Shown here: positions 40,843 through 64,000 of the stretch, in pieces | Numbering within the stretch: the stretch's first letter is position 1 | How the letters are laid out: the number at the start of each line of letters is the position of its first letter | NCBI RefSeq assembly: GCF_010994755.1 | Contig: NZ_WHSB02000011.1 | Coordinates: 62,001-126,000 of the forward strand | Reading direction: 5' to 3' | Origin: Shinella lacus | Lineage (GTDB): Bacteria > Pseudomonadota > Alphaproteobacteria > Rhizobiales > Rhizobiaceae | Length of the DNA: 64,000 nucleotides | Program-made: the position numbers and the translations under genes | The notes under the pieces: model-generated | Databases searched by the model: none | The model's input: only the letters and a program-made list of their open reading frames with translations | Told to the model about the DNA's origin: nothing

Positions 40843-40910
40843 TGCGAATGATTTGCAATTGCGTTGACAGGCGTCAAAAGCGCCCTATAGTTTAATGCAA
40901 CTCATTCGCA
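40843..40910 (+). promoter_or_regulatory. sitABCD promoter flanked by two Mur/Fur-type operators
   Basis: TTGACA (40864-40869), a 16-bp spacer and TATAGT (40886-40891) form a strong promoter. The 15-mers TGCGAATGATTTGCA (40843-40857) and TGCAACTCATTCGCA (40896-40910) fit TGC-R-AAT-N-ATT-Y-GCA with at most one mismatch and lie on each side, 53 bp apart. In rhizobia sit operons are repressed by the Mn-responsive Fur-family protein Mur at paired sites like these. Confidence 0.8.
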
Positions 40911-40930
40911 AAAGCAGATCAGGAGAGCCT

Positions 40931-42687: not shown

Positions 42688-43556
42688 TCGACTTTTTGCT
42701 CGAACCCTTCGGCTATGGCTACATGGTCAACGCCATGTGGGTCAGCGCGCTGGTCGGCTGTATTTGCGGCTTTCTCTCCGCCTATCTGATGCTGAAGGGC
42801 TGGTCGCTGATCGGCGATGCCCTCTCGCACTCGATCGTGCCCGGCGTTGCCGGCGCCTATATGCTGGGCCTGCCCTTCGCGGCCGGCGCCTTCCTTTCCG
42901 GCGGGCTCGCCGCCGCCGCCATGCTCTTCCTCAACCGCAAGACCAAGCTGAAGGAAGACGCGATCATTGGCATGATCTTCTCCTCCTTCTTCGGCCTCGG
43001 CCTCTTCATGGTCTCGCTCTCGCCGACGCCGGTGAACATCCAGACCATCGTGCTCGGCAATATCCTCGCCGTCAGCCCGGAGGATACGATCCAGCTCGCC
43101 ATCATCGGCGCCGTCACGCTGCTCATCCTGCTCTTGAAGTGGAAGGATCTGATGGTCACCTTCTTCGACGAGAGCCATGCCCGCTCGATCGGCCTCAACC
43201 CGACGGGCCTGAAAATCCTGTTCTTCACCCTGCTCAGCGCCTCCACGGTCGCCGCCATGCAGACGGTCGGCGCCTTCCTCGTCATCGCCATGGTGGTGAC
43301 GCCGGGCGCCACCGCCTATCTGCTGACCGACCGCTTCCAGCGCCTGATCGTCATCGCAGCCGCCCTTGGCGGCGGCACCAGCTTCGTCGGCGCCTATATC
43401 TCCTACTTCCTCGATGGCGCAACGGGCGGCATCATCGTCGTGCTGCAGACGGTGATCTTCCTGCTCGCCTTCCTCTTCGCCCCCAAACACGGCCTCCTCG
43501 CCGCACGCCGCAAGGGCCGGCTGGCGCTTGAACCCGCAGAAGGCGCACAGCCATGA
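42684..43556 (+). CDS. sitC: Manganese/iron ABC transporter permease subunit 1
   Basis: The 290-residue ABC-3 family permease has about eight membrane helices. Landmarks are [20 protein letters not shown] near residues 35-54 and the later [20 protein letters not shown]. The ATGA overlap with sitB indicates translational coupling. It pairs with SitD to form the metal channel. The two permeases are similar to each other over the whole length, consistent with an old duplication. Confidence 0.94.
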
Positions 43557-44395
43557 ACGAGACGCTCGAACTCGCGATCATGCCCTTCCAGCTCGCCTTC
43601 ATGCAGAACGCCTTCCTGGTGACGCTGATGATCGCCGTGCCGATGGCGCTGCTCTCCTGCTACCTCGTGCTGAAGGGCTGGTCGCTGATGGGCGACGCGG
43701 TCTCCCATGCGGTGCTGCCGGGCGTCGTCATCGCCTATGTCGTCGGCCTGCCCTTTGCGGCCGGCGCCTTCGTCGCCGGCCTGTTCTGCGCGCTCGCTGC
43801 CGGCTACCTCAAGGACAACAGCCGGGTGAAGGAAGACACGATCCTCGGCATCGTCTTCTCCGGCATGTTCGCGCTCGGCCTGGTGCTCTACGTCAAGATC
43901 CAGCCGGATATCCATCTCGACCATATCCTGTTCGGCGACATGCTCGGCATCGCCGTGTCCGATCTCGTCGAGACGGCAGCGATCGCCGTCGCATCCACGG
44001 CTTTCATCCTGCTCTTCCGCAAGGACCTGCTGGTGCATGCCTTCGACCGGCAGCACGCGTCCGCCATCGGCCTGCCCGTCAACCTGCTGCACTACGGCCT
44101 GCTCGCCGTGCTGTCGCTCGTCGTCGTCGGCGCGCTGAAAGCGGTCGGCATCATCCTGGCGATCGCCATGCTGGTGGCCCCCGGCGCCATCGCCGCCCTC
44201 GTCACCCGGCGCTTCCCAAGCATGCTGATGGTCGCGGTCAGCGTTGCGCTTGGCGCCACCTTCTTCGGCATCTGGCTGAGCTTCATCATCGACAGCGCAC
44301 CGGCCCCGACCATCGTGCTTTTGATGACCATCCTCTTCGTCTTCGCCTTCCTGTGGAATGTGCTGCAAAGCCGAAAGCCCGCGCAGGAGGCCTGA
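43553..44395 (+). CDS. sitD: Manganese/iron ABC transporter permease subunit 2
   Basis: The 280-residue ABC-3 permease shows VLKGWSLMGDAVSHAVLPGV and ALKAVGIILAIAMLVAPGAI, paralogous to SitC. The ATGA overlap with sitC completes the four-gene operon. A perfect 14-bp palindrome GTCTGTCGACAGAC lies 17 bp past the stop (44412-44425) in the 118-bp gap before the next gene; its role is unclear and it lacks a U-tract. Confidence 0.94.
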   Translation: MNETLELAIMPFQLAFMQNAFLVTLMIAVPMALLSCYLVLKGWSLMGDAVSHAVLPGVVIAYVVGLPFAAGAFVAGLFCALAAGYLKDNSRVKEDTILGIVFSGMFALGLVLYVKIQPDIHLDHILFGDMLGIAVSDLVETAAIAVASTAFILLFRKDLLVHAFDRQHASAIGLPVNLLHYGLLAVLSLVVVGALKAVGIILAIAMLVAPGAIAALVTRRFPSMLMVAVSVALGATFFGIWLSFIIDSAPAPTIVLLMTILFVFAFLWNVLQSRKPAQEA

Positions 44396-45789: not shown

Positions 45790-46740
45790 ATGCATAAGGT
45801 TATTTTCGATACGGATCCCGGCGTCGATGACGCGATGGCGTTGCTGTTCCTGCACAATCACCCCGAGATCGACCTGATCGGCATCACCACCGTCTTCGGC
45901 AATGCCGCAATTGAGACGACGACACGCAATGCGCTGTTCCTGAAGCGCGAATGGGGCATCGAGGCACCGGTGGCCAAGGGTGACGGCAAGACCTACAACC
46001 CGATGCGCAACCCGATCGACTGGCCGGTGATGATCCACGGCCATGACGGGCTCGGCAATATCGACGTGCCGGAAACGATCGACCTGCCGCTCGACCCGCG
46101 TTCGGCGTCCCGCTTCATCATCGAGACCGTCCGGGCAAATCCCGGCGAGGTGACGCTGATCGCCGTCGGCCGCATGTCGAACCTCGCCTATGCGCTGAAG
46201 GAAGACCCGGCGATTGCAGGCCTCGTCAAACAGGTCATCATCATGGGCGGCGCCTTCGATGTGCCCGGCAACATCACACCCGCCGCCGAGGCGAACATCC
46301 ACGGCGACCCGGAAGCCGCCGATGCGGTGATGATGGCGCCGTGGAAAGTGGTCGTCGTCGGCCTCGACGTGACGATGAAGACCGTGATGACGCGCAAGCG
46401 CCTCGCCGAACTGACCGCGCAGAACGGCAAGCACCTGAAACTGCTTTCCGACATCTCGCAGTTCTACATCGACTTCTATGGCCAGCATGTGAAGGACGAG
46501 GGCATGGTGGTGCATGACAGCTGCGCCTGCATCTACCTCATCGCACCCGACCTCTTCACCACCCGCTCGGGCGCGATCCGCGTCGTCGCCGGCGGCATCG
46601 CCGATGGCCAGACGATCCAGAAGCCCGACGCCCGCAGCTTCCCGCCCGGCAACTGGGACGACCTGCCCAGCCAGCACGCCTGCATCGGCATCGATGCGGA
46701 AAAGGTGATGGCGCTGCTCGACGAGACGCTCGTTCGCTGA
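45790..46740 (+). CDS. Inosine-uridine-preferring nucleoside hydrolase family protein
   Basis: The 316-residue protein has the nucleoside hydrolase calcium motif at the N-terminus (VIFDTDPGVDDAMALLFLH) and the second family segments FGNAAIETTTRNAL, IIMGGAFDVPGNITPAAEAN and HDSCACIYLIAP. It should split the N-glycosidic bond of ribonucleosides. One deviation is the strand usually read as GPLTNLA, here GRMSNLA, so substrate or efficiency may differ. The hairpin after the gene is described separately. Confidence 0.9.
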   Translation: MHKVIFDTDPGVDDAMALLFLHNHPEIDLIGITTVFGNAAIETTTRNALFLKREWGIEAPVAKGDGKTYNPMRNPIDWPVMIHGHDGLGNIDVPETIDLPLDPRSASRFIIETVRANPGEVTLIAVGRMSNLAYALKEDPAIAGLVKQVIIMGGAFDVPGNITPAAEANIHGDPEAADAVMMAPWKVVVVGLDVTMKTVMTRKRLAELTAQNGKHLKLLSDISQFYIDFYGQHVKDEGMVVHDSCACIYLIAPDLFTTRSGAIRVVAGGIADGQTIQKPDARSFPPGNWDDLPSQHACIGIDAEKVMALLDETLVR

Positions 46741-48553: not shown

Positions 48554-49720
48554 TCAGGCGACGCCCAGCACCGTCATCAGGCTTTTCATGCGCGCGGCCG
48601 CCAGTTCCGGCTTGTCGAGCACATTCGCCTGGTCGGCAAGGCGGAAGACGTCTGCATAATGCGTGACACCGCGAGCGGACTGCATGCCGGCCGGCATGGT
48701 GAAATGGTCCTGGTGACCGTTCAGCCAGGCAAGGAACACGACGCCCGCCTTGTAATATTGCGTCGGCGCCTCGAAAATCTTGCGTGACAGCGGCACCGTC
48801 GGCTCGATGACGGCGCGGAACGTCTCGACATCGCCGGCGGCAAGCGAAGCGAGCGCCTTGGAGGCCTGCGGCGCCACCGCATCGAAAATGCCGAGCAGCG
48901 CATGGCTGTATTTGCGGCCATCGCCCTCGATCAGTTCGGCATAATTGAAATCATCACCGGTAAAGCACAACACGCCCTCCGGCAGACGATCGCGCATCGC
49001 GACTTCCTTGGCGTTTTCGAGCAGCGAAATCTTGATGCCCTCGACCTTGTCGCGGTTCTCCTCGATGATCGAGAGCACGGCATCCAGCGCCGGCTCGAAG
49101 CTGTCCGAGCCCCAATAGCCCTTCAACTGCGGATCGAACATGTCGCCGAGCCAGTGCAGCACGACCTTGTCCTTCGCCTGGCCGAGGATGTGGCCGTAGA
49201 CCTTGCGGTAATCGTCCGGCGATTTGGCAAGGCGGGCAAGCGCGCGGCTCGCCATCATGATCGCCCGGCCGCCATGTTTTTCGACGAAGCCGACCTGCTC
49301 CTCATAGGCCCGGATAACATCGTCCAGCGAGCGGGCATCGGCCGGGTTGAGATGGTCCGTGCCGGCACCGCAGGCGAGATCGGCGCCCGGCACCGTGCGC
49401 GCCTCGGCGAGCGAACGGCTGATCAGTTCCTGCGCGCCCGCCCAGTCGAGCCCCATGCCGCGCTGCGCCGTATCCATCGCCTCGGCGATGCGGAAGCCGA
49501 GCGACCAGAGATGATGCCGGAAGGCCAGGGTCGCGTCCCAGTCCACCGCCGGCGCCTCCCACGGCCGTGTGTCGCGGCGCGGATCGGAGACCACATGCGC
49601 CGCCGCATAGGCGATGCGGTTGAAGCGTGGCACCGCGGACGGCCGGACAAGCGGCGTGCCGACGAGATCGTAACGGGCAAGGCCACCATCCGGCTGCGGC
49701 AGGGTAAGGCTGATTGACAT
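48554..49720 (-). CDS. DUF993 family protein (dihydrodipicolinate synthase-like TIM barrel)
   Basis: The 388-residue protein belongs to DUF993, a family placed near DapA-type aldolases/lyases but uncharacterised. Visible landmarks are PRFNRIAYAAAHVVSDPRRD, ADLACGAGTDHLNPADARSL, ASRALARLAKSPDDYRKVYG, VVLHWLGDMFDPQLKGYWGS, VEGIKISLLENAKEVAMRDR and LCFTGDDFNYAELIEGDG. The lysine in EGIKISL is a good candidate for a Schiff-base residue by position, but this is inference. It is divergent from a LacI gene, with a matching operator in its promoter, so it belongs to the same regulon as the CoA-transferase operon. It probably cleaves or condenses a keto acid. Confidence 0.82.
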   Translation of the reverse strand: MSISLTLPQPDGGLARYDLVGTPLVRPSAVPRFNRIAYAAAHVVSDPRRDTRPWEAPAVDWDATLAFRHHLWSLGFRIAEAMDTAQRGMGLDWAGAQELISRSLAEARTVPGADLACGAGTDHLNPADARSLDDVIRAYEEQVGFVEKHGGRAIMMASRALARLAKSPDDYRKVYGHILGQAKDKVVLHWLGDMFDPQLKGYWGSDSFEPALDAVLSIIEENRDKVEGIKISLLENAKEVAMRDRLPEGVLCFTGDDFNYAELIEGDGRKYSHALLGIFDAVAPQASKALASLAAGDVETFRAVIEPTVPLSRKIFEAPTQYYKAGVVFLAWLNGHQDHFTMPAGMQSARGVTHYADVFRLADQANVLDKPELAAARMKSLMTVLGVA

Positions 49721-49745
49721 GAAATCCTCCCAGGGGTTTTCCAGG

Positions 49746-49774
49746 GCAATAATTTAGATCGTTCCAAGTTTCAA
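49746..49774 (-). promoter_or_regulatory. DUF993 promoter with LacI operator between -35 and -10
   Basis: On the minus strand TTGAAA (49769-49774), a 17-bp spacer and TATTGC (49746-49751) form the promoter. The spacer contains TTGGAACGATCTAA (49754-49767), the same 14-mer as in the divergent LacI promoter apart from one base. Confidence 0.78.
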
Positions 49775-49857
49775 GGTGATTTTTGAAAACACGCCGCCCC
49801 GATCGACATGCGCGCAGCAACCGAAGTTATGCGGGAAGCCATCGCCCCACCCTCGGT

Positions 49858-49943
49858 CGTCATCCTCGGCCTTGAGCCTAGGATCCACAAGCCCGGGCGT
49901 TGCGCGTGCAGCATGGATGGTCGGGTCAAGCCCGACCATGACG
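49858..49943. repeat. RIME/REP-like nested palindrome, diverged copy 2
   Basis: Two 30-nt arms (49858-49887 and 49914-49943) keep the outer CGTCAT...ATGACG ends of the element at 16145-16222. The inner hairpins have diverged separately: CCTCGGCCTTGAGCCTAGG on the left and GGTCGGGTCAAGCCCGACC on the right. It sits between the two LacI-controlled promoters. The rest of this 366-bp gap holds only the promoters and operators. Confidence 0.65.
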
Positions 49944-50011
49944 GGTGGAGAGGGCACAGGCGTGGTCGAGAGGCCGCAAAGGCTTCTACCGCTATTCGTC
50001 ACAAAAACCTC

Positions 50012-50040
50012 TTGACAAATTTGGAACGATCCAATTATTT
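50012..50040 (+). promoter_or_regulatory. Promoter of the LacI/CoA-transferase operon with operator in the spacer
   Basis: TTGACA (50012-50017), a 17-bp spacer and TTATTT (50035-50040). The spacer contains TTGGAACGATCCAA (50021-50034), a 14-bp near-perfect palindrome. Binding would exclude RNA polymerase directly and would make the operon autoregulated. Confidence 0.82.
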
Positions 50041-50086
50041 GACATCAACAAGCAGGCGAAAGACGCCGCGCGTTGGGAGGATGATC

Positions 50087-52131
<2,045 letters not shown>

Positions 52132-52136
52132 GTCCT

Positions 52137-53750
52137 ATGAGCAAGCATATCACCCCGCGCCAGGCCGCAGATCTGATCCCGGACGGCGCCGTCGTTTCGG
52201 TCTCCTCCTCCTCCGGTCTTGGCTGCCCGGACCTGATGCTGAAGGCGATCGGCGAACGCTTCGACGAGACCGGCAGCCCGAAGAACCTGACGACGCTGCA
52301 CCCGATCGCCGCCGGCGACATGAGCGGCATCAAGGGCGTGGATTACATTGCGAAAAAGGGTCTTTTGAAGAAGATCATCGGCGGCTCCTACCCGTCCGGC
52401 CCCTCCTCCTCCGAACCGCCGCTGATCTGGCAGATGATCGGTAGCGACGAGGTCGCCGCCTATAACATCCCCTCCGGCATCCTCTTCGACATGCACCGCG
52501 AGGCCGCAGCAAAACGCCCCGGCGTCATCACCAAGGTCGGCCTCGAAACCTTCGTCGACCCGCGCCGCGAAGGCTGCGCGATGAACGCTTCGGCGGCACG
52601 CGAACCGGTGGTCGAGAAGATCACCTTCGCCGGTGAGGAATGGCTCTATTTCAAGGCGATCGCGCCGCAGGTGGCGATCATCCGCGCCACCACGGCCGAC
52701 GAACGCGGCAACCTGACCTATGAACACGAGGGCGCCTATCTCGGCGGGCTCGACCAGGCGCTCGCCGCCCGCAACAATGGCGGCATCGTGATCGCGCAGG
52801 TCAAGCGCATCGTCAAGGAAGGCTCGCTGAAACCGCATGACGTGCGCGTGCCGGGCGTGCTGGTCGATTATGTCGTGGTCGATCCGGACCAGAAGCAGAC
52901 GACGCAGACGCTGTACGACCCCGCGATTTCCGGCGAGATCTTTCGGCCGCTCGACACATTCCGCGTGCCGGAATTCAACATCCAGAAGGTCATCGCCCGC
53001 CGCGTGGCGCAGGAGCTGGAAGCCGGCAGCGCCGTCAATCTCGGCTTCGGCATTTCCGCTAACGTGCCGCGCATCCTACTCGAAGAAGGCCTGCATGGCG
53101 CAGTGACGTGGGTGATCGAACAGGGGGCCGTCGGCGGCGTGCCGCTGCTCGATTTCGCCTTCGGTTGCGCTTCGAATGCCGATGCCTTCATGCCCTCGCC
53201 CTACCAGTTCACCTATTTCCAGGGCGCGGGCTTCGATGCCTCGCTGCTCTCCTTCCTCGAAATCGGCAAGGACGGCTCGGTCAACGTCTCGAAACTGTCG
53301 TTCCGGCCGCATGTGACGGCGGGCGCGGGCGGTTTCGTCGACATCACGGCGCGGGCGAAGAAGATCGTCTTCTCCGGCATGTTCAATGCCGGCGCGAAAC
53401 TCTCCGTCGAAGGCGGCAAGCTGGTGATCGAGAAGGAAGGCAAGCTGAAGAAGCTGGTCAATGCCGTGGAGCATGTCACCTTCTCCGGCCCGCGCGGTGT
53501 CGCGCAGGGGCAGGACATCACCTATGTCACCGAGCGCTGCGTGCTGAAGCTGACGCCCGAGGGTGTCATGCTCACCGAGATCGCGCCGGGCGTCGATCTC
53601 CAGGCGCATATCCTCGACCAGTCGGAATTTGCACTGATCGTTTCGCCGGACCTGAAGGTGATGGACACAGCACTCTTCACCGATGCGCCGATCGGCCTGA
53701 CGCTGCCGCAGAAGGCACCGCGCAAGCTGGCAGGAGCGCACCATGGCTGA
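52137..53750 (+). CDS. Single-chain acyl-CoA:carboxylate CoA-transferase
   Basis: The 537-residue protein is a fused family I CoA-transferase (alpha and beta halves in one chain, as in acetate/propionate or 3-oxoacid CoA-transferases). The N-terminal glycine-rich loop is VVSVSSSSGLGCPDLML. The beta half begins near residue 280 with FNIQKVIARRVAQELEAGSA and NLGFGISANVPRI. The catalytic glutamate should be in VTWVIEQGAVGGVPLLDF. It activates a short-chain or hydroxy acid as the CoA thioester. The next gene starts 8 bp before its stop. Confidence 0.9.
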   Translation: MSKHITPRQAADLIPDGAVVSVSSSSGLGCPDLMLKAIGERFDETGSPKNLTTLHPIAAGDMSGIKGVDYIAKKGLLKKIIGGSYPSGPSSSEPPLIWQMIGSDEVAAYNIPSGILFDMHREAAAKRPGVITKVGLETFVDPRREGCAMNASAAREPVVEKITFAGEEWLYFKAIAPQVAIIRATTADERGNLTYEHEGAYLGGLDQALAARNNGGIVIAQVKRIVKEGSLKPHDVRVPGVLVDYVVVDPDQKQTTQTLYDPAISGEIFRPLDTFRVPEFNIQKVIARRVAQELEAGSAVNLGFGISANVPRILLEEGLHGAVTWVIEQGAVGGVPLLDFAFGCASNADAFMPSPYQFTYFQGAGFDASLLSFLEIGKDGSVNVSKLSFRPHVTAGAGGFVDITARAKKIVFSGMFNAGAKLSVEGGKLVIEKEGKLKKLVNAVEHVTFSGPRGVAQGQDITYVTERCVLKLTPEGVMLTEIAPGVDLQAHILDQSEFALIVSPDLKVMDTALFTDAPIGLTLPQKAPRKLAGAHHG

Positions 53751-54522
53751 ACCGCGCATCCGCATATCCATCGAAGGCGCCATCGCGACGATCACCGTCG
53801 CGCGGCCGGAGAAGCTCAACGCCTTCGACATCGACATGCTGAAGGAATTGTCCGCCGCCTGCGACGATGTCGAGGCGAATGCCGCGGTGCGCGTCGCGAT
53901 CCTCACCGGCGAAGGCAAGGCCTTTTCCGCCGGCGGCGACATCCGCGCCTGGGGCGGCATGGAGGCCAACGAATTCGGCCACGCCTGGGTGCGCTTCGGC
54001 CACCGCGTCTTCGAACGGCTGGCGACGCTGCGCATGCCGCTGATCGCCGCTGTCAACGGCCATGCGCTGGGCGGCGGGCTGGAACTGGCGGCTGCGGCCG
54101 ATATCCGCATCGCCGAAACGCAGGTGAAGATCGGCCTGCCGGAAGCGGGCCTCGGCATGGTGCCCGGCTGGTCCGGCACGCAGCGGCTGGTGAAGCGTTT
54201 TGGCGCGCAGGCGGTGCGGCGCATGCTGCTCGGCGGCGAAGTGCTGGCGGCGGCGGAAGCGGAAACACTCGGCATCCTCGATCAGGTCGTGGAGACCGGA
54301 ACAGCCGTCGAAGCGGCGAAGACCTATGCGGCGCGCATTGCGGCGCGCGGGCCGGCGGCGACGGAAGTGTCGAAGCTGATGATCGCGGTGGCGAACAATG
54401 AAGACAATGGTGCGGCGGTGGAGGCCCTCGGCTCGATCCTCGTCGCCAAGACCGGGGACCTGAAGGAAGGCGTCGCCGCCTTCACGGGAAAACGCCCCGC
54501 AGACTTCAAGGGAGAATGGTAA
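53743..54522 (+). CDS. Enoyl-CoA hydratase/isomerase family protein
   Basis: The 259-residue crotonase-fold enzyme has oxyanion-hole segments GKAFSAGGDIRAW (about 65-77) and GHALGGGLELAAAADIRIA (about 107-125). The glutamate following in GLPEAGLGMVPGWSGTQRL is the usual catalytic residue; a Glu is also present in GLELA. It could hydrate, isomerise or retro-aldol cleave a CoA thioester made by the preceding transferase. The start overlaps the transferase gene by 8 bp and its stop overlaps the next start (TAATG). Confidence 0.9.
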   Translation: MAEPRIRISIEGAIATITVARPEKLNAFDIDMLKELSAACDDVEANAAVRVAILTGEGKAFSAGGDIRAWGGMEANEFGHAWVRFGHRVFERLATLRMPLIAAVNGHALGGGLELAAAADIRIAETQVKIGLPEAGLGMVPGWSGTQRLVKRFGAQAVRRMLLGGEVLAAAEAETLGILDQVVETGTAVEAAKTYAARIAARGPAATEVSKLMIAVANNEDNGAAVEALGSILVAKTGDLKEGVAAFTGKRPADFKGEW

Positions 54523-56027
54523 TGACCGCGCATGTGAAACCCAAGGCGCTTGACAACTTCCAGGCACGCGATTTCCGCATGCTGATCGACGGCGTCTGGA
54601 CGGAAGGTGCCGGCCCGGCACTTGAGCGCGTGGCACCCGGCCACGGCATCGTGGTGAGCCGCTATCCGGCCGGCACCAAGGCCGATGCCGAACGCGCCAT
54701 CGCCGCAGCCCGCAAGGCCTTCGACGAGGGTCCGTGGCCGAGCATGACGGGCGCCGAGCGCTCCAACATCCTGCTGAAGGCCGCCGACCTCATCGCCGCC
54801 CGCGCCGATGAACTCGCCTTCCTCGACTGCATCGAGAGCGGAAAGCCGATCAGCCAGGCGAAGGGCGAACTCGGTGGTGCCGCCGACATCTGGCGCTATG
54901 CCGCAGCGCTTGCCCGTGATCTGCACGGCGAAAGCTACAACACGCTCGGCCAAGGCACGCTCGGCGTGGTGCTGCGCGAGGCGATCGGCGTCGTTTCGAT
55001 CATCACGCCCTGGAACTTCCCCTTCCTGATTGTCAGCCAGAAGCTGCCCTTCGCGCTCGCTGCCGGCTGCACCACGGTGGTCAAACCCTCGGAGCTCACC
55101 TCCGGCTCGACGTTGGTTCTCGGCGAGATCCTCGTCGAAGCCGGCGTTCCGGCCGGTGTCGTCAACATCCTCACCGGCACCGGCCCCGAAGTCGGCGCGC
55201 CGATGACGACGCATCCGGATGTCGACATGGTCTCCTTCACCGGCTCCACCGGCGTCGGCCGCCTGACGATGGCCAATGCCGCGCAGACGCTGAAGAAGGT
55301 CTCGCTGGAACTCGGCGGCAAGAACCCGCAGATCGTCTTCCCGGACGCGAATCTCGACGAGTTTATCGACGCCGCCGTCTTCGGCGCCTATTTCAATGCC
55401 GGCGAATGCTGCAATGCCGGCTCGCGGCTGATCCTGCACAAGTCGATTGCCGCGGATGTCACCGCCCGCATCGCGGAGCTGGCGAAAAAGGTGAAGGTCG
55501 GCGATCCGCTCGATCCGACGACCCAGGTCGGCGCGATCATTACGCCGCAGCACCTCGAAAAGATCGGCTCCTATGTGGACGGCGCGACCAAGGCCGGCGC
55601 TTCGGTCGCGCTTGGCGGCGGCGCGCTCGATCTCGGCCTCGGCCAGTTCATGACGCCGACCATCCTCTCCGGCGTGCTGCCCGACATGACGGTCGCCCGT
55701 GAAGAGGTCTTTGGCCCTGTCCTCTCGGTGCTGACCTTCGAGACGACGGAAGAGGCTATTCGCATCGCCAACGCCATCGACTACGGCCTGTCGGCCGGCG
55801 TGTGGAGCCGCGATTTCGACACCTGCCTGACCATCGGCCGCAAGGTGCGCGCCGGCACGGTCTGGATGAACACCTTCATGGACGGCGCCTCGGAACTGCC
55901 CTTCGGCGGCTACCGCCAGTCCGGCCTCGGCCGCGAACTCGGACGCCATGCCGTGGAAGACTACACCGAGACCAAGACGCTCAACATGCATATGGGTGCA
56001 CGCACCGGCTGGTGGATGCCGCGATGA
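54522..56027 (+). CDS. NAD(P)-dependent aldehyde dehydrogenase
   Basis: The 501-residue ALDH-superfamily enzyme has the nucleotide-binding segment WNFPFLIVSQKLPFALAAGC, SFTGSTGVGRLTM, the general base glutamate in SLELGGKNPQIVF and the nucleophile Cys296/297 in NAGECCNAGSRL. The pattern is closest to aminobutyraldehyde/betaine-type dehydrogenases. The start ATG 54522 overlaps the hydratase stop (TAATG), with GGAG 7 nt upstream. It would oxidise an aldehyde released by cleavage of the operon substrate. It ends the operon, convergent with the next LacI gene 47 bp away. Confidence 0.93.
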   Translation: MTAHVKPKALDNFQARDFRMLIDGVWTEGAGPALERVAPGHGIVVSRYPAGTKADAERAIAAARKAFDEGPWPSMTGAERSNILLKAADLIAARADELAFLDCIESGKPISQAKGELGGAADIWRYAAALARDLHGESYNTLGQGTLGVVLREAIGVVSIITPWNFPFLIVSQKLPFALAAGCTTVVKPSELTSGSTLVLGEILVEAGVPAGVVNILTGTGPEVGAPMTTHPDVDMVSFTGSTGVGRLTMANAAQTLKKVSLELGGKNPQIVFPDANLDEFIDAAVFGAYFNAGECCNAGSRLILHKSIAADVTARIAELAKKVKVGDPLDPTTQVGAIITPQHLEKIGSYVDGATKAGASVALGGGALDLGLGQFMTPTILSGVLPDMTVAREEVFGPVLSVLTFETTEEAIRIANAIDYGLSAGVWSRDFDTCLTIGRKVRAGTVWMNTFMDGASELPFGGYRQSGLGRELGRHAVEDYTETKTLNMHMGARTGWWMPR

Positions 56028-56074: not shown

Positions 56075-57127
56075 TCAGGGCGTCGGGAAGCTGAATTGCG
56101 GGTTCTGCAGGATCGTCAGGTCCTCGACCGGCTCGCCGACGATGCGCTGCAGGAGCAACTGCCCCATGGCCTCGCCGGCCGCCTTCAGGTCCTCGTAGAT
56201 CGTCTCGACCTTGGGCTGGATCTGGCTCAAGAGCAGCGAGGTCTGCTTGGCGACGATGTCGTATTCCGTGCCCAGCGTAAAACCCTGGTCGCTCATACCG
56301 GTGATGGTGGCAAGCGCCGAGACTTCGCCGGGACAGGCGAAGCCATCCGGCGCGTCGGGCTCGGCGCTGCGGCGGCGCACATAGTCGCGGATCATGTCGG
56401 CGGGACTGTCGAGATCGAGCGTCTCGGGGATTTCGTAGGCGATGCCCGCCTCGCGCACCGCGGTCATGAAGCCGTGCAGCATGTGCTGGTAGAAGGTGAG
56501 ACGCTTGGGCGGCAGGATGATCGTCACCTTGCGCCGGCCCTTGACGATCAGCCGCTTGGCGGCCTCGTAGGCGAAGGCGAAATTGTCGTAGTCGACGAAG
56601 GCATGCGGGGTGGAGAATTCCGTGCGGCCATGCGTGACGAAGGGAAAGCCGTTTTCGAGCAGCAGCCGCACGCGCGGGTCAAAAGGCTCGGTGCGCGAAA
56701 AGATCAGGCCATCGGCCATGCCGTTGCGGATGATGTAGTTGACCGCATCGACATTGCTGCCGTCGAGAAAATTCGGCGTGACGATGAGATGGTAGGGCGT
56801 CGCCTGGAGCGCGCGCGCCAGGCCATGCATGATGGATGTGCCGAAGCCCAGGATTTCCTCGTGCGGGTCGAGCAGCACGGAAATGACATTGGTGCGGCCG
56901 GTCTTCAGGCGCTGGGCGGCGCGGTCCGGCAGGTAGCCGATCTCGGCGGCCACCTCGTGCACGCGCCGACGGGTGTTTTCCGAAATCTGCGGCGCATTGC
57001 CGAGCGCGCGGGAGACCGTGGTGATCGCAAGGCCCGTCAGTTCGGCAATGGTCTTCAGCGTCGGCTTGCCGGCTCGGGGCGGGCTGCGGGCGGGTTCACT
57101 GTCGGCGGGCTTTTCGATGCGGGACAC
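56075..57127 (-). CDS. LacI-family regulator of the MalE-type sugar operon
   Basis: The 350-residue protein has an unusual proline-rich N-terminal extension of about 20 residues (MSRIEKPADSEPARSPPRAG), then the LacI domain TLKTIAELTGLAITTVSRAL and an effector domain with VLLDPHEEILGFGTSIMHGL and DYDNFAFAYEAAKRLIVKGR. It is divergent from the SBP-permease-permease-ATPase-GMC-SDR operon. Two palindromic sites with central AACGTT are present in the intervening 332-bp gap. It likely represses that operon and itself. The family resembles AglR-type regulators of sugar uptake. Confidence 0.9.
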   Translation of the reverse strand: MSRIEKPADSEPARSPPRAGKPTLKTIAELTGLAITTVSRALGNAPQISENTRRRVHEVAAEIGYLPDRAAQRLKTGRTNVISVLLDPHEEILGFGTSIMHGLARALQATPYHLIVTPNFLDGSNVDAVNYIIRNGMADGLIFSRTEPFDPRVRLLLENGFPFVTHGRTEFSTPHAFVDYDNFAFAYEAAKRLIVKGRRKVTIILPPKRLTFYQHMLHGFMTAVREAGIAYEIPETLDLDSPADMIRDYVRRRSAEPDAPDGFACPGEVSALATITGMSDQGFTLGTEYDIVAKQTSLLLSQIQPKVETIYEDLKAAGEAMGQLLLQRIVGEPVEDLTILQNPQFSFPTP

Positions 57128-57209: not shown

Positions 57210-57227
57210 AATTTAAAACGTTTTCCG
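57210..57227. promoter_or_regulatory. LacI operator near the regulator gene, site 1
   Basis: AATTTAAAACGTTTTCCG contains the perfect palindrome AAAACGTTTT (57215-57224). It lies 83 bp before the LacI start and shares AATTTA-M-AACGTTTT with site 2, 124 bp away. Confidence 0.65.
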
Positions 57228-57322: not shown

Positions 57323-57353
57323 TTGACTCCGCAAATTTACAACGTTTTAAATT
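57323..57353 (+). promoter_or_regulatory. Promoter of the sugar ABC operon with LacI operator, site 2
   Basis: TTGACT (57323-57328), a 17-bp spacer and TTTAAA (57346-57351) form the promoter. AATTTACAACGTTTTAAATT (57334-57353, 18 of 20 positions symmetric) covers the spacer and the -10 box. The rest of the gap between the two sites shows nothing recognisable. Confidence 0.75.
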
Positions 57354-57459
57354 GGCGCGGCACTTTGAGCCGCAAACGGAATTCCGATGCCTTCAAGGGC
57401 GTCGGGGAAATCGGCGGGAGGAGGCTCTCGCCCTCGAACTTGCAAACGGGAGGAATACG

Positions 57460-58713
57460 ATGCGCAAGTTTCTGACAACCACTGCGATCGCCGCGGTGAT
57501 GATGACCATGGGCGGCATGTCCGCTACCAAGGCAGCCGAAGGCGTCGAGGTTCTGCACTGGTGGACATCCGGCGGCGAGGCAGCCGCCCTCGACGTCCTG
57601 AAGAAGGACCTGGAAGCCAAGGGCATTTCCTGGACCGACATGCCGGTTGCCGGCGGTGGCGGCACGGAAGCCATGACGGTTCTGCGCGCCCGCGTCACAG
57701 GCGGCAATGCGCCGACCGCCGTGCAGATGCTCGGCTTCGACATTCTCGACTGGGCCAAGGAAGGCGCACTCGGCAATCTCGACGACGTGGCCGCAAAGGA
57801 AGGCTGGGACAAGGTCATTCCGACCGCGCTCCAGCAGTTCTCGAAGTATGACGGCCACTGGATCGCAGCGCCGGTCAACGTGCACTCCACGAACTGGGTC
57901 TGGGTCAACAAGGCAGCCCTCGATGCAGCCGGCGGCAAGGAGCCGACGAACTGGGATGAACTCGTCGCCCTTCTCGACAAGTTCAAGGAACAGGGCATCA
58001 CGCCGGTGGCGCATGGTGGCCAGCCGTGGCAGGACGCGACGATCTTCGACGCGGTCGTGCTCTCCTTCGGCAACGACTTCTACAAGAAGGCGTTCATCGA
58101 CCTCGATCCGGAAACGCTGGGCAGCCCCCAGATGAAGGAAGCCTTCGACCGCATGACGAAGCTGCGTTCCTACGTGGACGACAACTTCTCGGGCCGTGAC
58201 TGGAACCTCGCGTCCGCCATGGTCATCGAAGGCAAGGCCGGCGTTCAGTTCATGGGCGACTGGGCGAAGGGCGAATTCATCAAGGCCGGCAAAAAGCCGG
58301 GCACGGACTTCGTCTGCATGCGCTTCCCGGGCACGCAGGGTTCGGTCACCTTCAACTCCGACCAGTTCGCGATGTTCAAGGTTGCCGACGACAAGGTTCC
58401 CTCGCAGCTCGTGATGGCATCCGCCATCGAGAGCCCGGCCTTCCAGTCGGCCTTCAACGTGGTCAAGGGCTCGGCGCCGGCCCGCACCGACGTCTCGGAC
58501 GAAGCCTTCGACGATTGCGGCAAGAAGGCCATCAAGGACCTCGCGGAAGCCAACACCAACGGCTCGCTGTTCGGTTCCATGGCACACGGCCACGCCAACC
58601 CGGCCTCCGTCAAGAACGCGATCTATGACGTCGTGACCCGCCAGTTCAACGGCGAGCTTTCCTCCGAGGAAGCCGTGACGGAACTCAAGGCCGCCGTCGA
58701 GGCTGCGAAGTAA
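57460..58713 (+). CDS. Sugar ABC transporter binding protein (MalE/GtsA-like)
   Basis: The 417-residue protein has a signal peptide ([22 protein letters not shown], approximately residues 4-25) and a type-1 extracellular solute-binding fold: [40 protein letters not shown], and [20 protein letters not shown]. It is closest in pattern to bacterial glucose/mannose and related hexose binding proteins. GGGAGGA precedes ATG 57460. A repeat with two stable hairpins follows directly and probably limits transcription or decay into the permease genes. The sugar is unknown. Confidence 0.93.
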
Positions 58714-58718
58714 GAGGC

Positions 58719-58823
58719 TAGCCCCTCACCCTACCCTCTCCCCACTGGGGAGAGGGGATTTGAACGTCGCGGCAAAGCCCTTCTCCCCAGCGGGGAGAAG
58801 GTGGCGGCAGCCGGATGAGGGGG
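58719..58823. repeat. Two-hairpin intercistronic repeat inside the sugar operon
   Basis: Between the binding protein and permease genes there are two hairpins, CCCTCTCCCC-ACT-GGGGAGAGGG (58734-58756) and CCTTCTCCCC-AGC-GGGGAGAAGG (58779-58801), framed by CCCCTCA at 58722 and TGAGGGG near 58816. This is a common dispersed repeat of alphaproteobacteria. It could act as a 3' stabiliser that raises binding-protein mRNA relative to the rest of the operon. Confidence 0.7.
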
Positions 58824-58866
58824 CCACGCGCCGCCCTGCAACCCGATTTCAACGGTGGTATCGACC

Positions 58867-59748
58867 ATGGATAGCCGCAGCCGGCTGCAGGAGCTTTTGC
58901 CGAAGCTCGTGCTGGCACCCAGTTTCCTCATCGTGCTCGTCTTCGTCTACGGCTTCATCGCCTATACGGGCTTCCTGTCGCTGACGGACAGCAAGATGCT
59001 GCCCTCCTACAACTTCGTGGGACTGAGCAACTACACCAAGCTCTGGGCGCTGCCGCACTGGTGGCGGGCGATCTCCAATCTCGCGATCTTCGCCTCGCTC
59101 TACATCGTCATCTGCTCGGTGCTGGGCCTGGGGCTCGCCATCCTGCTCGACCAGAAGATCCGCGCGGAAGGCATCCTGCGGCCGATCTATCTTTACCCGA
59201 TGGCGCTTTCCTTCATCGTGACGGGCACGGCCTGGAAGTGGTTCCTCGATCCCGGCATCGGGCTTGAGAACACCATGCACCTCTGGGGCTGGGAAAGCTT
59301 CGCCTTCAACTGGATCAAGGACCGCAACTACGCCATCTACTGCGTGGTGATCGCCGCCGTCTGGCAGTCCTCCGGCTTCGTCATGGCCATGTTCCTCGCC
59401 GGCCTTCGCGGCGTCGACAACGAGATCATCAAGGCCGCCCAGATCGACGGCGCCTCGACCACCACCATCTATCGCCGCATCATCATTCCGCTAATGCGCC
59501 CGGTCTTCCTGTCGGCCTTCGTCGTGCTCGCCCACCTCGCCATCAAGGCCTATGACCTCGTCGTTGCCTTGACCGGCGGCGGCCCCGGCCAGGCGACCGA
59601 ACTGCCCGCAACCTTCATGTATTCCTACACCTTCACCCGCAACCAGATGGGCATCGGCGCCTCGTCGGCCATCATCATGCTGGTCATGATCTTCTCGATC
59701 ATCATCCCCTACCTCTATTCCGAAATCCGCGGAGGCAAAGGCCGATGA
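58867..59748 (+). CDS. Sugar ABC transporter permease 1 (MalF type)
   Basis: The 293-residue permease has six membrane helices and the ABC coupling motif EIIKAAQIDGASTTTIYRRI followed by IIPLMRPVFLSAF. It pairs with the following permease. ATG 58867 is used; a GTG at 58855 is in frame. The ribosome site is weak, perhaps a reason for lower expression than the binding protein. Its stop overlaps the next start in ATGA. Confidence 0.92.
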   Translation: MDSRSRLQELLPKLVLAPSFLIVLVFVYGFIAYTGFLSLTDSKMLPSYNFVGLSNYTKLWALPHWWRAISNLAIFASLYIVICSVLGLGLAILLDQKIRAEGILRPIYLYPMALSFIVTGTAWKWFLDPGIGLENTMHLWGWESFAFNWIKDRNYAIYCVVIAAVWQSSGFVMAMFLAGLRGVDNEIIKAAQIDGASTTTIYRRIIIPLMRPVFLSAFVVLAHLAIKAYDLVVALTGGGPGQATELPATFMYSYTFTRNQMGIGASSAIIMLVMIFSIIIPYLYSEIRGGKGR

Positions 59749-60626
59749 GCGCTCAAAATCCCGACAACGTCATCTCGCACAACAAGCTGACGCGCGCGCT
59801 GATCTATACCGCGCTCATCCTGTTCGCCGTCTACTACATGCTGCCGCTCTACGTGATGCTGGTGAACTCGCTGAAGCCGCTGGACGAAATCCGCCAGGGC
59901 GGCATGCTGAACCTGCCGCAGGTCTGGACGATCGAGCCCTGGCTGCAAGCCTGGTCGACCGCGCAGATCGGCGTACAGCCGACGGGCCTTCGCCCCTTCT
60001 TCATCAACTCGATCCTGATGGTCGTTCCGGCCGTGGCGATCTCCACCATCATCGGCGCGCTGAACGGTTACGTGCTCACCAAGTGGCAGTTCAAGGGCTC
60101 GAACATCTTCTTCGGCCTGCTGCTGCTCTCCTGCTTCATCCCGTTCCAGATCGTGCTGATCCCCATGGCGCGCATCCTCGGCATGCTGGGACTAGCTGGT
60201 TCGCTCTGGGGCCTCATCCTGGTGCACATCGTCTACGGCCTCGGCTTCACCACGCTCTACTTCCGCAACTACTACGAAAATTTCCCGACCGAGCTGGTGC
60301 GCGCGGCACAGATCGACGGCGCGAGCTTCTTCCAGATCTTCTACCGCATCCTGCTGCCGTCCTCGGGGCCGATCATCGTCGTCTCCGTCATCTGGCAGTT
60401 CACCAATATCTGGAACGACTTCCTGTTCGGCGCCTCCTTCTCCGGCGCGAACACCACGCCGATGACGGTGGCGCTCAACAACCTCGTCTCGTCCTCGACC
60501 GGCGTGAAGGAATACAACGTTCACTTCGCAGGCGCGATCCTCGCCGCACTGCCCACCCTTATCGTCTACATCGTCTCCGGACGGTACTTCGTGCGCGGCC
60601 TGATGTCCGGCGCCGTGAAAGGATAA
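59745..60626 (+). CDS. Sugar ABC transporter permease 2 (MalG type)
   Basis: The 293-residue permease has six membrane helices and the coupling motif LVRAAQIDGASFFQIFYRIL followed by LPSSGPIIVVSVIWQF. LVNSLKPLDEIRQGGMLNLP is the typical first periplasmic loop. It overlaps the previous gene by ATGA and precedes the ATPase gene by 4 bp. It completes the heterodimeric membrane channel. Confidence 0.93.
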   Translation: MSAQNPDNVISHNKLTRALIYTALILFAVYYMLPLYVMLVNSLKPLDEIRQGGMLNLPQVWTIEPWLQAWSTAQIGVQPTGLRPFFINSILMVVPAVAISTIIGALNGYVLTKWQFKGSNIFFGLLLLSCFIPFQIVLIPMARILGMLGLAGSLWGLILVHIVYGLGFTTLYFRNYYENFPTELVRAAQIDGASFFQIFYRILLPSSGPIIVVSVIWQFTNIWNDFLFGASFSGANTTPMTVALNNLVSSSTGVKEYNVHFAGAILAALPTLIVYIVSGRYFVRGLMSGAVKG

Positions 60627-60630
60627 CCTC

Positions 60631-61746
60631 ATGTCGTTCCTCAAGATCAGCAATCTGCGCAAATCCTACGGTTCGCTCGAAATCCTCAAGGACATCAACC
60701 TCGAGATCGAGCAGGGTGGCTTCCTCGTGCTGGTCGGCCCGTCCGGCTGCGGCAAGTCCACGCTGCTCAACACCATCGCCGGCCTGGAGCCGATCACGTC
60801 AGGTGACATCGCCATCGACGGCCGCTCGGTCGCGGGCCTGCATCCCTCGAAGCGCGACATTGCGATGGTGTTCCAGTCCTACGCGCTCTACCCCAACATG
60901 ACGGTCGGCGGAAACATCGCCTTCGGCATGGAAATTCGCGGCGTGCCGAAGGAAGAGCGCGACAAGGCGATCAAGCAGGTCGCCGACATGCTCCAGATCG
61001 GACATCTGCTGGAGCGCAAGCCAGGCCAGCTCTCCGGCGGCCAGCGCCAGCGCGTCGCCATGGGCCGCGCGCTGGTGCGCGACCCGAAGCTGTTCCTGTT
61101 CGACGAGCCGCTATCGAACCTCGACGCGAAGCTGCGCGTCGACATGCGCACGGAAATCAAGCGCCTGCATCAGCGCATGAAGACCACCATCGTCTACGTG
61201 ACGCATGACCAGATCGAGGCGATGACGCTCGCCACCAAGATCGCGGTGCTGAAGGACGGCGTGCTGCAACAGTTCGGCTCGCCGGCGGAAATCTACAACA
61301 ACCCCGCCAACATCTTCGTCGCCGACTTCATGGGCTCGCCAGCGATGAACCTGCTTTCGGCGAGGATCGAGCAGAACGGCGCCGGCATGGCCGTCTCGCT
61401 CGCCCGCCACCAGGCGGAGCCGCTGGTGCTGTCCGTGCCGAACGCGCCCGGCGGACTGGCCGCCTACAAGGGCAAGGATGTGATCTTCGGCATCCGCCCG
61501 GAAGCATTGACCGACCCGGACGGCGCGGACCGCAATGCCCGCACCGTCGCGGAAGGCGATTGCCTGATCGAGGTGGTGGAGCCCGCCGGCGCCGACACCT
61601 TCGCCGTCACCCATCTCGGCGGCAAGGAAATCGTCGCGCGGCTTCGCGCCGACGTGCGCATCGCCGCCGGCCAGACCGCACGCCTCGCCTTCAACCTCGA
61701 CAAGGCGGTGTTCTTCGACCCCGCCAGCCAGCTTCGCATCGCCTGA
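60631..61746 (+). CDS. Sugar ABC transporter ATPase (UgpC/MsmK type)
   Basis: The 371-residue ATPase has Walker A GPSGCGKST (about 37-45), Q-loop VFQSYALYP, signature LSGGQRQRVAMGRAL, Walker B LFLFDEPLSNLDAKLR and the H-loop YVTHDQIEAM. The C-terminal regulatory TOBE-type domain (about 240-371) is present with VIFGIRPEALTDPDG. It energises the two permeases. The next gene (GMC oxidoreductase) starts 7 bp after the stop. Confidence 0.95.
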   Translation: MSFLKISNLRKSYGSLEILKDINLEIEQGGFLVLVGPSGCGKSTLLNTIAGLEPITSGDIAIDGRSVAGLHPSKRDIAMVFQSYALYPNMTVGGNIAFGMEIRGVPKEERDKAIKQVADMLQIGHLLERKPGQLSGGQRQRVAMGRALVRDPKLFLFDEPLSNLDAKLRVDMRTEIKRLHQRMKTTIVYVTHDQIEAMTLATKIAVLKDGVLQQFGSPAEIYNNPANIFVADFMGSPAMNLLSARIEQNGAGMAVSLARHQAEPLVLSVPNAPGGLAAYKGKDVIFGIRPEALTDPDGADRNARTVAEGDCLIEVVEPAGADTFAVTHLGGKEIVARLRADVRIAAGQTARLAFNLDKAVFFDPASQLRIA

Positions 61747-61753
61747 GTAGACC

Positions 61754-63262
61754 ATGACAACGCAGCCGGACATCGTCATCATCGGATCGGGCATCGGCGG
61801 CTCCACCATGGCCGCCGCGCTTGCCCCGACGGGCGCAAGGATCGTCATCCTGGAAGCGGGCGACCACCTGCCCGATCGTCCGGAAAACCGCGACCAGCGC
61901 GCCATCTTCCAGCGCGGCCATTTCCGCCCGAAGGAGATGTGGTACGAGGCCGACGGCACCGCCTTCAATCCCGGCAACTACTACAATGTCGGCGGCAACT
62001 CGAAATTCTACGGGGCGGTGCTGGTGCGCTACCGCAAGGAAGATTTCGAGGAGATGCGCCACCGCGACGGCGTCTCCCCAGCCTGGCCCTTTCCCTATGA
62101 AGAGCTGGAACCGTGGTATTCGGCGGCGGAAAAGCTCTACAATGTGCGCGGCACGCTCGGCGAGGACCCGAGCGAGCCGCACCATTCCGCGCCCTACCCC
62201 TTCCCGCCCGTGCCGGACGAACCCGCCATCGCGAAGGTGCGCGCGAAGATGAAGGCAAACGGCCTGCACCCCTATTCGCTGCCGCTCGGCGTCGATATCG
62301 ACCGCTGGCTCGCCAAGGCGAAGACGCCGTGGGATGCGCATCCGAACGCCAACGACGGCAAGATGGATGCCGAAAGCACGGCACTCGCCGAAGCCCTCAG
62401 GCACCCGAATGTCGAGCTGCGCACCAATTGCCGGGTGACCCGGCTCGCCACCGCACCGCATGGCCGCACCATCTCTACAGTGCATTACATGCGCGATGGC
62501 GAGGCGCACAGCATCTCGCCAAAACTGGTCATCCTCTCGGCGGGCGCCGTGCAATCGGCCGTGCTGCTGCTGCGCTCGGCCTCGGAGGCCTTTCCGAAGG
62601 GGCTTGCCAACAGCTCCGACCAGGTCGGCCGCAACTTCATGAACCACAATTCGAGCGCCGTGATCGGCGTCTCGCCCTTCTATAAAAACACATCCGTCTA
62701 CCAGAAGAGCTTTGGCTTCAACGACTACTACCTCTCGGACGGCAATGGCGGCGCGCCGCTCGGCAATGTGCAGCTCCTCGGCCGCGTCTCGGGAAAGATA
62801 CTCAAGGCCAACATGCCCTCCGTGCCGGAATGGCTGCTGGAACAGGTCGCCGCCCGCGCTATCGATTTCTACGCAATGAGCGAGGACCTGCCGCATCCGG
62901 AAAGCCGCATCACGGTGGACCGCGACCGCATCGTCATGAAATGGACGCGCACCAACTGGCAGGCCCATCTCGACCTGGTCACCAAGCTGAAGGCCGCGCT
63001 GAAGAAGGCCGGTTTCCCCATCGTGCTCGCCCGCGCCTTCGACAAGCGCACGCCCTCGCATCAATGCGGTACGGTGCGCATCGGCAACGATCCGGCAACG
63101 GCGCCGCTCGATATCTGGAGCCGCGCCTATGACCATCCGAACCTCTTCGTGGTCGACGCCTCCTACCTGCCGACCTCGGCCGCGGTGAACCCGGCGCTGT
63201 CCGTTGCCGCCCAGGCGCTGCGCGTCGCGGACCGCATCAAATCGAGGGATCTCGCCGTATGA
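61754..63262 (+). CDS. GMC family FAD-dependent oxidoreductase
   Basis: The 502-residue protein is a glucose-methanol-choline oxidoreductase without signal peptide. The FAD loop is DIVIIGSGIGGSTMAAALAP, the flavin-attachment region is NYYNVGGNSKFYGAVLVRYR, and the C-terminal catalytic pair is the His of FDKRTPSHQCGTVRIG and the Asn of PTSAAVNPALSVAAQALR. It would oxidise a hydroxyl of a sugar, polyol or glycoside and pass electrons to an unknown acceptor. Relatives include catalytic subunits of pyranose/glucoside 3-dehydrogenases, but this copy lacks an adjacent partner subunit. It is translationally linked to the SDR gene (ATGA). Confidence 0.9.
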   Translation: MTTQPDIVIIGSGIGGSTMAAALAPTGARIVILEAGDHLPDRPENRDQRAIFQRGHFRPKEMWYEADGTAFNPGNYYNVGGNSKFYGAVLVRYRKEDFEEMRHRDGVSPAWPFPYEELEPWYSAAEKLYNVRGTLGEDPSEPHHSAPYPFPPVPDEPAIAKVRAKMKANGLHPYSLPLGVDIDRWLAKAKTPWDAHPNANDGKMDAESTALAEALRHPNVELRTNCRVTRLATAPHGRTISTVHYMRDGEAHSISPKLVILSAGAVQSAVLLLRSASEAFPKGLANSSDQVGRNFMNHNSSAVIGVSPFYKNTSVYQKSFGFNDYYLSDGNGGAPLGNVQLLGRVSGKILKANMPSVPEWLLEQVAARAIDFYAMSEDLPHPESRITVDRDRIVMKWTRTNWQAHLDLVTKLKAALKKAGFPIVLARAFDKRTPSHQCGTVRIGNDPATAPLDIWSRAYDHPNLFVVDASYLPTSAAVNPALSVAAQALRVADRIKSRDLAV

Positions 63263-64000
63263 CGACACCAGCACGCCCCGTCGCCATCGTCACCGGCGGC
63301 CGCCGCGGCATCGGCCTCGGCATCGCAAAAGCGCTCGCGGCGCAGGGCTTCGACATCGCCATCACCGGCATCGGCGACAGCGATGCCGCGACCGACGCCA
63401 TGCTGGCCGAGTTCGACGGCCGCGCGATCTATCTCAAGGCCGACCTCGCCGATCTCTCCGGCCACGCAGCCACCGTCAAGGCGATAGAAGACCAACTCGG
63501 CGCCATCGGCTGCCTCGTCAACAATGCCGGCATCGCCTCCGTCGTGCGCGGCGATTTCCTCGATCTTTCGCCGGAAAATTTCGACACGATCGTCGGCACC
63601 AACCTGCGCGGCACGGTGTTCTTCACGCAAGCCGTGCTGAAGGCGATGCTGCATTCCAAACAGGCGGCCGGCCCGCGCTCGGTCATCAACATCACCTCCG
63701 TTTCCGCCTCGCTCGCCTCGCCGGAACGGCTGGACTACTGCATGACAAAGGCCGGGCTTGCCGCCTTCAGCCAGGGGCTGGCGCTGCGATTGGCTGACAC
63801 CGGCATTTCCGTCTTCGAAATCCGCCCCGGCATCATCCGCTCCGACATGACGGCCGGCGTTTCGGGAAAATACGACACGCTGATCGAGGGCGGCCTCGTG
63901 CCGATGAAGCGCTGGGGCGAACCGGACGACATCGGCTCCGCCGCCGCCGCGCTCGCAACAGGCCAGTTCGCCTTCGCCACCGGCTCGGTGATCAATCTCG
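63259..64000 (+). CDS. Short-chain dehydrogenase/reductase (partial, C-terminus outside window)
   Basis: The visible 247 codons form an almost complete classical SDR. The cofactor loop is VTGGRRGIGLGIA (residues 11-23), followed by NNAG (88-91), the serine region NITSVSAS and the catalytic Y160/K164 in LDYCMTKAG. It reads through DIGSAAAALATGQFAFATGS before the window ends, so only a few residues are missing. It probably oxidises or reduces an intermediate of the same sugar route as the GMC enzyme. Its start overlaps the GMC stop (ATGA). Confidence 0.92.
   Translation, partial: MTTPARPVAIVTGGRRGIGLGIAKALAAQGFDIAITGIGDSDAATDAMLAEFDGRAIYLKADLADLSGHAATVKAIEDQLGAIGCLVNNAGIASVVRGDFLDLSPENFDTIVGTNLRGTVFFTQAVLKAMLHSKQAAGPRSVINITSVSASLASPERLDYCMTKAGLAAFSQGLALRLADTGISVFEIRPGIIRSDMTAGVSGKYDTLIEGGLVPMKRWGEPDDIGSAAAALATGQFAFATGSVINL

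Follow-up and report, generated by a model that had tools for sequence, protein, structure and literature searches.

The stretch of Shinella lacus DNA analysed here, 64,000 nucleotides of contig NZ_WHSB02000011.1 (hereafter the window), contains a gene cluster which very probably serves the aerobic uptake and catabolism of 1,5-anhydro sugars, with 1,5-anhydro-D-fructose (AF), 1,5-anhydro-D-mannitol (AM) and perhaps 1,5-anhydro-D-glucitol (AG) as candidate substrates. Read from its sequence, the cluster combines an orthologue of 1,5-anhydro-D-fructose reductase (AFR), a sugar-type ATP-binding cassette (ABC) importer and a regulator of the LacI family whose two operators are conserved. It also comprises two conserved gene groups: DUF993, lacI, AFR, CoA-transferase (CoAT), enoyl-CoA hydratase (ECH) and aldehyde dehydrogenase (ALDH), and a trio encoding the oxidoreductases GMC1, SDR and GMC2. 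We consider it probable that this substrate class is degraded by a CoA-dependent route; the exact order of the steps, derived from enzyme families, is offered tentatively. A first-pass annotation of the six genes from DUF993 to ALDH had proposed that LacI controls a catabolic regulon in which a sugar-like compound is activated with CoA and perhaps cleaved by a C-C lyase, and the conserved gene set, the conserved operators and the aldolase-superfamily fold of DUF993 all agree with it.

Among solved structures, 2glx and 4koa match the Gfo/Idh-family protein of the cluster best, and each bears the name 1,5-anhydro-D-fructose reductase; the next best match scores 126 bits against 579. The coenzyme residues A13 and S33 are kept; also present are K94 and H180, catalytic residues of AFR, and R38. 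SMc04400 is presumably AFR as well, and Kuhn et al. reportedly described the enzyme in 2006 as the AFR of Sinorhizobium morelense AF catabolism. Identity to the biochemically characterised enzyme extends over the full length and reaches 261 of 333 aligned residues with 4koa and 258 of 331 (78%) with 2glx, whose source organism is given as S. morelense in passages of PMC5817062 and PMC5969746; A13G/S33D appears as a coenzyme-specificity mutant in a table of PMC5817062. In S. meliloti Ak57 the AFR gene is annotated as 1,5-anhydro-D-fructose reductase. Since the Gfo/Idh protein is, by sequence, an orthologue of AFR, a name can be given to the substrate class and one pathway step, the first, has already been described, so that “uncharacterised”, the term used in the first pass, does not apply. 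Two other roles were considered and rejected. One is inositol metabolism: the IolG models stay far under their cut-off, whereas AFR gives a 78% match. The other is aromatic or hydroxycinnamate degradation (CoA activation, crotonase, ALDH), which the presence of an AFR orthologue together with a sugar-type ABC system argues against.

The six genes lie at the coordinates first assigned to them and belong to the Pfam families first named (Table 1). To call the five from lacI to ALDH overlapping is a slight overstatement: three of the four junctions do overlap (LacI/Gfo-Idh by 4 bp, CoAT/ECH by 8 bp and ECH/ALDH by 7 bp), but Gfo-Idh and CoAT are separated by a 5-bp gap. The initial statement that no transporter is present was wrong: at 57451-61746, beyond ALDH, lies a sugar ABC transporter of the CUT1 type, and a GMC-SDR-GMC set comes after it; the transporter, the two GMC oxidoreductases and the SDR also belong to the cluster, which is thus not limited to six genes. 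On the contig beyond the window, the SDR gene is followed by that of a choline-dehydrogenase-like GMC (GMC2) and then a Dabb protein. The transporter follows ALDH on the same strand, at a gap of 99-256 bp, in 26 relatives without the second lacI gene, and GMC1-SDR-GMC2 stand directly after ALDH in 15 loci with no intervening transporter. S. meliloti Ak57 has in one stretch DUF993, LacI, AFR, CoAT, ECH, ALDH, the sugar-binding protein (SBP), two permeases, the ATPase, GMC, SDR, GMC and glycerate kinase. The window SBP is 85% identical to 4r2b, which holds glucose, and more remotely similar to 2b3b, a structure that carries the name glucose-binding protein; 5dvf is a Pseudomonas glucose-binding protein.

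Both divergent promoters were said to carry the same operator, and this holds: in the window, TTGGAACGATCYAA is matched exactly at 50021-50034 and at its near copy on the other strand, 49754-49767, and nowhere else. With as many as three mismatches allowed, this pattern has five window matches versus 5.3 expected from shuffles, i.e. not above chance; four of the five are the two exact operator places, each read on both strands, and the one further place is at 43139. The own genome (7.04 Mb) has three places that match TTGGAWCGWTCYAA with no more than one mismatch, of which two are the cluster operators, and the backwards control pattern occurs at one. Comparison of relatives is stronger evidence than these counts: two sites at up to two mismatches to TTGGAWCGWTCCAA were found in 68/68 DUF993-LacI intergenic regions and in 0/68 when each region was shuffled once. 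The regions come from related species and are therefore not independent, though their flanking sequence and length do vary; they were drawn from 71 loci with DUF993, of which L113, L125 and L156 failed a coverage or spacing filter, and L113 and L125 likewise show two operator sites.

From gene order, we take LacI (50081-51133) to be the probable orthologue of S. meliloti SMc04401. That protein is listed as a regulator in part of PMC4560400. A possible operator for the second LacI is TTTACAACGTTTTAAA (57336-57351), a weak candidate: at up to two mismatches it has two places in the own genome against eight backwards-control matches (three and five by strand), and its core is present in 15/35 related regions.

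Searches for DUF993 returned matches in 48/151 genomes of the family, 40/150 of the order and 0/14 control genomes. Forty regions surrounding DUF993 matches from the family search were compared; the window's own place is not one of them. In 23 of them DUF993 is 67-90% identical to that of the window and the six genes occur together (in L060, the match to ALDH covers just 10%). The other 17 have a DUF993 of 54-61% identity and no AFR orthologue, with CoAT and ECH in three (L052, L071 and L073). A survey starting from AFR took the best 80 of 205 relatives in named genomes and scored a gene as present at 45% identity or more. LacI accompanies AFR in all 80 of these loci, CoAT in 79, ECH and ALDH in 78 each, DUF993 in 71, GMC1 in 65, a same-strand SBP in 62 and the second LacI in 37. 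Joint conservation of the gene set, the check attached to the first-pass proposal, was thus found, with the strict six-gene order in 68/80 loci. Among the 12 without strict order, L101 and L135 run into a contig end, and in L113 and L125 single genes appear as several separate matches.

The enzymes flanking AFR have recognisable catalytic features. CoAT contains the EXG-type motif EQGAVGG with glutamate 328 and matches the YdiF structure 2ahu over residues 6-527; the alpha and beta halves share a single chain, so that what was earlier called fused is an ordinary enzyme of the YdiF/FadX type. In ECH two glutamates, E114 and E134, are kept 20 residues apart, the spacing of the two catalytic glutamates of rat ECH. 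The best solved relative of ALDH, 3u4j, is named only as NAD-dependent ALDH, and the second-best, 7w5l, is an L-sorbosone dehydrogenase, an enzyme that is known paired with sorbose dehydrogenase. GMC1 is related to FAD glucose dehydrogenases and fructose dehydrogenases, and GMC2 is of the choline-dehydrogenase type.

Fold comparison gives DUF993 the TIM-barrel fold of the DHDPS/NAL superfamily, whose aldolases include DapA, YagE and HOGA1. K230, in strand 226-232, is invariant across 20 diverse DUF993 members and may be the counterpart, on barrel strand 6, of the Schiff-base lysine of DHDPS. DUF993 is a putative Schiff-base C-C lyase with K230 as candidate catalytic lysine; it forms a separate Pfam family with 9-17% identity to these aldolases. 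A scan of NCBIfam gave no DUF993 match, and a text search of the literature found no paper on DUF993/PF06187. Identity to the window DUF993 is 57% for 4dnh (SMc04132), a solved, uncharacterised protein, and 80% for the cluster copy of S. meliloti Ak57; 4dnh is for that reason probably a paralogue that belongs to a different context.

Ordinary sugar chemistry needs an aldehyde carbon, which anhydro sugars lack, and this would be the reason for a CoA route. GMC1 and AFR could interconvert the compounds at C2 (AG to AF to AM), GMC2 and ALDH would oxidise C6 from CH2OH to carboxylate, and CoAT would form a 1,5-anhydrouronyl-CoA. Because the thioester acidifies the C5 hydrogen, the crotonase could then remove the hydroxyl at C4 by elimination, leaving a vinyl ether; its hydration would open the ring to a 2-keto-3-deoxy acid, which DUF993 would split into pyruvate and glyceraldehyde, the latter entering metabolism as glycerate. 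Such a split would explain the glycerate kinase gene found beside the cluster in two annotated replicons. We put forward this undescribed aerobic pathway, in which a sugar-uronyl-CoA thioester undergoes elimination and rehydration by a crotonase across the ring-ether carbon and then C-C cleavage by DUF993, as a possibility that is still rather speculative.

Several observations count against this proposal. DUF993 is missing from eight of the AFR loci without strict order (L096, L099, L100, L103, L104, L105, L108 and L159). Seven of these eight genomes have a paralogue of 58-60% identity on a contig other than that of the operator sites and the eighth has none, while the operator occurs at one to four places in the eight; when open reading frame positions and lengths were compared in seven of these loci, no gene stood out consistently as a substitute for DUF993. 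DUF993 is accordingly tied to the regulon strongly, not strictly. Its link to DHDPS rests on fold comparison, the sequence-profile link alone being weak: the profile alignment puts K230 on the DHDPS lysine with a probability of 1.5% and E 0.033. GXXGE, which binds the substrate carboxylate in DHDPS and other 2-oxo-acid aldolases, is not seen in DUF993, where the corresponding place reads AMDTAQRG (located by visual inspection, and modelled there with low confidence); a plain substrate of the 2-keto-3-deoxygluconate (KDG) type is thus less likely. Glycerate kinase was not found in the 80 AFR loci, only 16 of which extend to GMC2, beyond which the kinase is expected, and the single MOFRL match of the own genome is on a different contig. 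As for the importer, Ak57 gene order and gene numbering lead us to take SMc04396 as the likely orthologue of the SBP gene. PMC4960864 reports dextrin as an inducer of smc04396, described there as a putative sugar transporter gene of S. meliloti; this neither proves nor excludes anhydro sugars.

The AFR of the cluster could also serve an osone (2-keto aldose) or another 2-keto sugar in vivo, with AF reduction as a side activity and the operon degrading osones or oxidised sugar released by plant or fungal material. AFR is said, in the 2006 literature on the enzyme, to reduce osones; L-sorbosone, the substrate of the second-best solved relative of ALDH, is an osone, and the relatives of the SBP include proteins that bind sugars and glucose. 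We nevertheless regard this as unlikely, since osones should need no CoA chemistry and S. morelense was isolated with AF as sole carbon source, a trait ascribed to Rhizobiaceae in passages of PMC12441222. The same passages have AF reduced to AM in Rhizobiaceae and AM converted to mannose via a P450-like C1 hydroxylase not yet identified. The cluster shares with AF catabolism in S. morelense the AFR orthologue, the Rhizobiaceae host and the aerobic setting, but instead of C1 hydroxylation to mannose as the next step it offers linked CoAT, ECH, ALDH, an aldolase-fold protein and a transporter, with no P450 found. If the published route holds here, AM made by AFR would pass to an unlinked oxygenase, and CoAT, ECH, ALDH and DUF993 would degrade a different, co-inherited substrate. 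Linkage of AFR and P450 genes is not claimed in PMC12441222; the own genome has two P450 matches, both on other contigs, and a CoAT-ECH-SDR-DUF993 set without AFR on C7 of that genome and on S. meliloti pSymA means that the module can work on other substrates. Against such a division, CoAT, ECH and ALDH occur in 78-79 of the 80 AFR loci as one tightly packed unit, and tblastn with the two own P450s detected none in these loci (a heme-motif scan gave one match, in L110, taken as chance), so we think it improbable.

Another option keeps the substrates and changes the chemistry to a β-oxidation-like sequence, in which, once CoA is attached, the SDR would oxidise a 3-hydroxyacyl-CoA (at C4) and DUF993 would cleave a 3-keto acyl compound. 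The model for this is deoxyribonate: Price et al. 2019 (PMC6365646) proposed that it is cleaved oxidatively in CoA-bound form, in a pathway that includes a CoA-transferase and glycerate kinase. The C7 and pSymA sets do add an acyl-CoA dehydrogenase and ETF. That system has in common with the cluster a CoA-activated sugar acid, its cleavage and glycerate kinase; it differs in cleaving by a β-keto acid cleavage enzyme or thiolase, and the passages of PMC6365646 on this route mention neither AFR nor DUF993. Such chemistry would leave the ring ether at C5 unaccounted for and Pfam does not place DUF993 in the β-keto acid cleavage family, which makes this option rather doubtful.

On the preferred reading, CoA-dependent catabolism of 1,5-anhydro sugars, the cluster is an AFR-centred operon with its own importer, conserved in rhizobia and relatives and partly known. 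The first-pass claim that no described pathway has this enzyme set needs to be divided: AF reduction was already described, but no account of the linked CoA-dependent genes was found among the text-search matches listed, nor, among the matches listed from open-licence literature, any paper describing clustered genes for aerobic use of anhydroglucitol or anhydromannitol. Gut bacteria degrade the same anhydropolyols, 1,5-AG and 1,5-AM, anaerobically by phosphotransferase system phosphorylation and the oxygen-sensitive glycyl-radical enzyme YbiW/PflD (passages of PMC12441222), whereas no such family is among the scanned cluster proteins; those passages state that an analogous oxidative pathway for AG is not described. 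The cluster supplies at once candidate genes for the missing steps after AFR, an importer and a regulator, and, if the proposal is true, the DUF993 family gains its first function, C-C cleavage. An aerobic AG-consuming route would matter for a probiotic approach to two neutropenias, because that approach would need an enzyme working with oxygen present (passages of PMC12441222).

Related modules occur without AFR. The second set on C7 and pSymA comprises GMC, ALDH, CoAT (68-69% identical), ECH, SDR and DUF993 (56%), next to the acyl-CoA dehydrogenase and ETF and, on pSymA, glycerate kinase. This fits reuse of the CoAT-ECH-SDR-DUF993 core as a common acid-CoA and lyase module with varied front ends. 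The C7 set (L052:1-13600, L078:11600-19500), in which ETF is present as subunits, also has a TetR regulator, a CUT2-type ABC transporter, a zinc alcohol dehydrogenase, an aldo-keto reductase and a xylose-isomerase-like TIM barrel; the like set on pSymA is at L074 and L076, and a text search with the SMa14xx locus tags found no pertinent paper. In a third context (L035:3900-15700, with L034, L036, L038, L047, L048 and L055 similar), DUF993 of 58-61% identity occurs with distant Gfo/Idh proteins and no CoA-transferase match, which suggests that DUF993 acts in several sugar pathways. At L073:10542-11705 a Rieske ring-hydroxylating-type oxygenase is encoded beside a DUF993, SDR, CoAT and ECH cluster.

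Table 1 Features of the anhydro-sugar cluster in the window.
Feature	Position	Strand	Basis or remark
DUF993 (PF06187), putative Schiff-base (class I) C-C lyase	48554..49720	-	Pfam, 4dnh homologue, fold
LacI operator before DUF993, TTGGAACGATCTAA	49754..49767	-	Pattern search, comparison of relatives
LacI operator before lacI-afr operon, TTGGAACGATCCAA	50021..50034	+	Pattern search, comparison of relatives
LacI-family regulator	50081..51133	+	Pfam
AFR, Gfo/Idh family	51130..52131	+	A13, S33, R38, K94, H180 present
Family I CoA-transferase (CoAT), YdiF/FadX type	52137..53750	+	Pfam; glutamate 328 in EQGAVGG
Enoyl-CoA hydratase/crotonase (ECH)	53743..54522	+	Pfam; E114 and E134
Aldehyde dehydrogenase (ALDH)	54516..56027	+	Pfam; solved relatives 3u4j, 7w5l
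Second LacI regulator, possibly of transporter operon	56075..57127	-	Pfam; 37/80 related loci
Possible operator of second LacI, TTTACAACGTTTTAAA	57336..57351	+	Weak; related core at 57215
Sugar-binding protein (SBP), CUT1-type ABC transporter	57451..58713	+	Start 57451 or 57460; Pfam, 4r2b
ABC permease	58855..59748	+	
ABC permease	59745..60626	+	
ABC ATPase (MalK-like)	60631..61746	+	
GMC oxidoreductase 1 (GMC1)	61754..63262	+	Related to FAD glucose and fructose dehydrogenases
SDR dehydrogenase	63259..64000	+	Cut by window end

Elsewhere in the window, 40895-44395 encodes a ZnuA-like metal-binding protein, an ABC ATPase and two ABC-3 permeases and resembles an ordinary zinc/manganese uptake operon. 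An inosine-uridine-preferring nucleoside hydrolase is encoded at 45793-46740, and the same neighbour is present in L043, L046 and L050.

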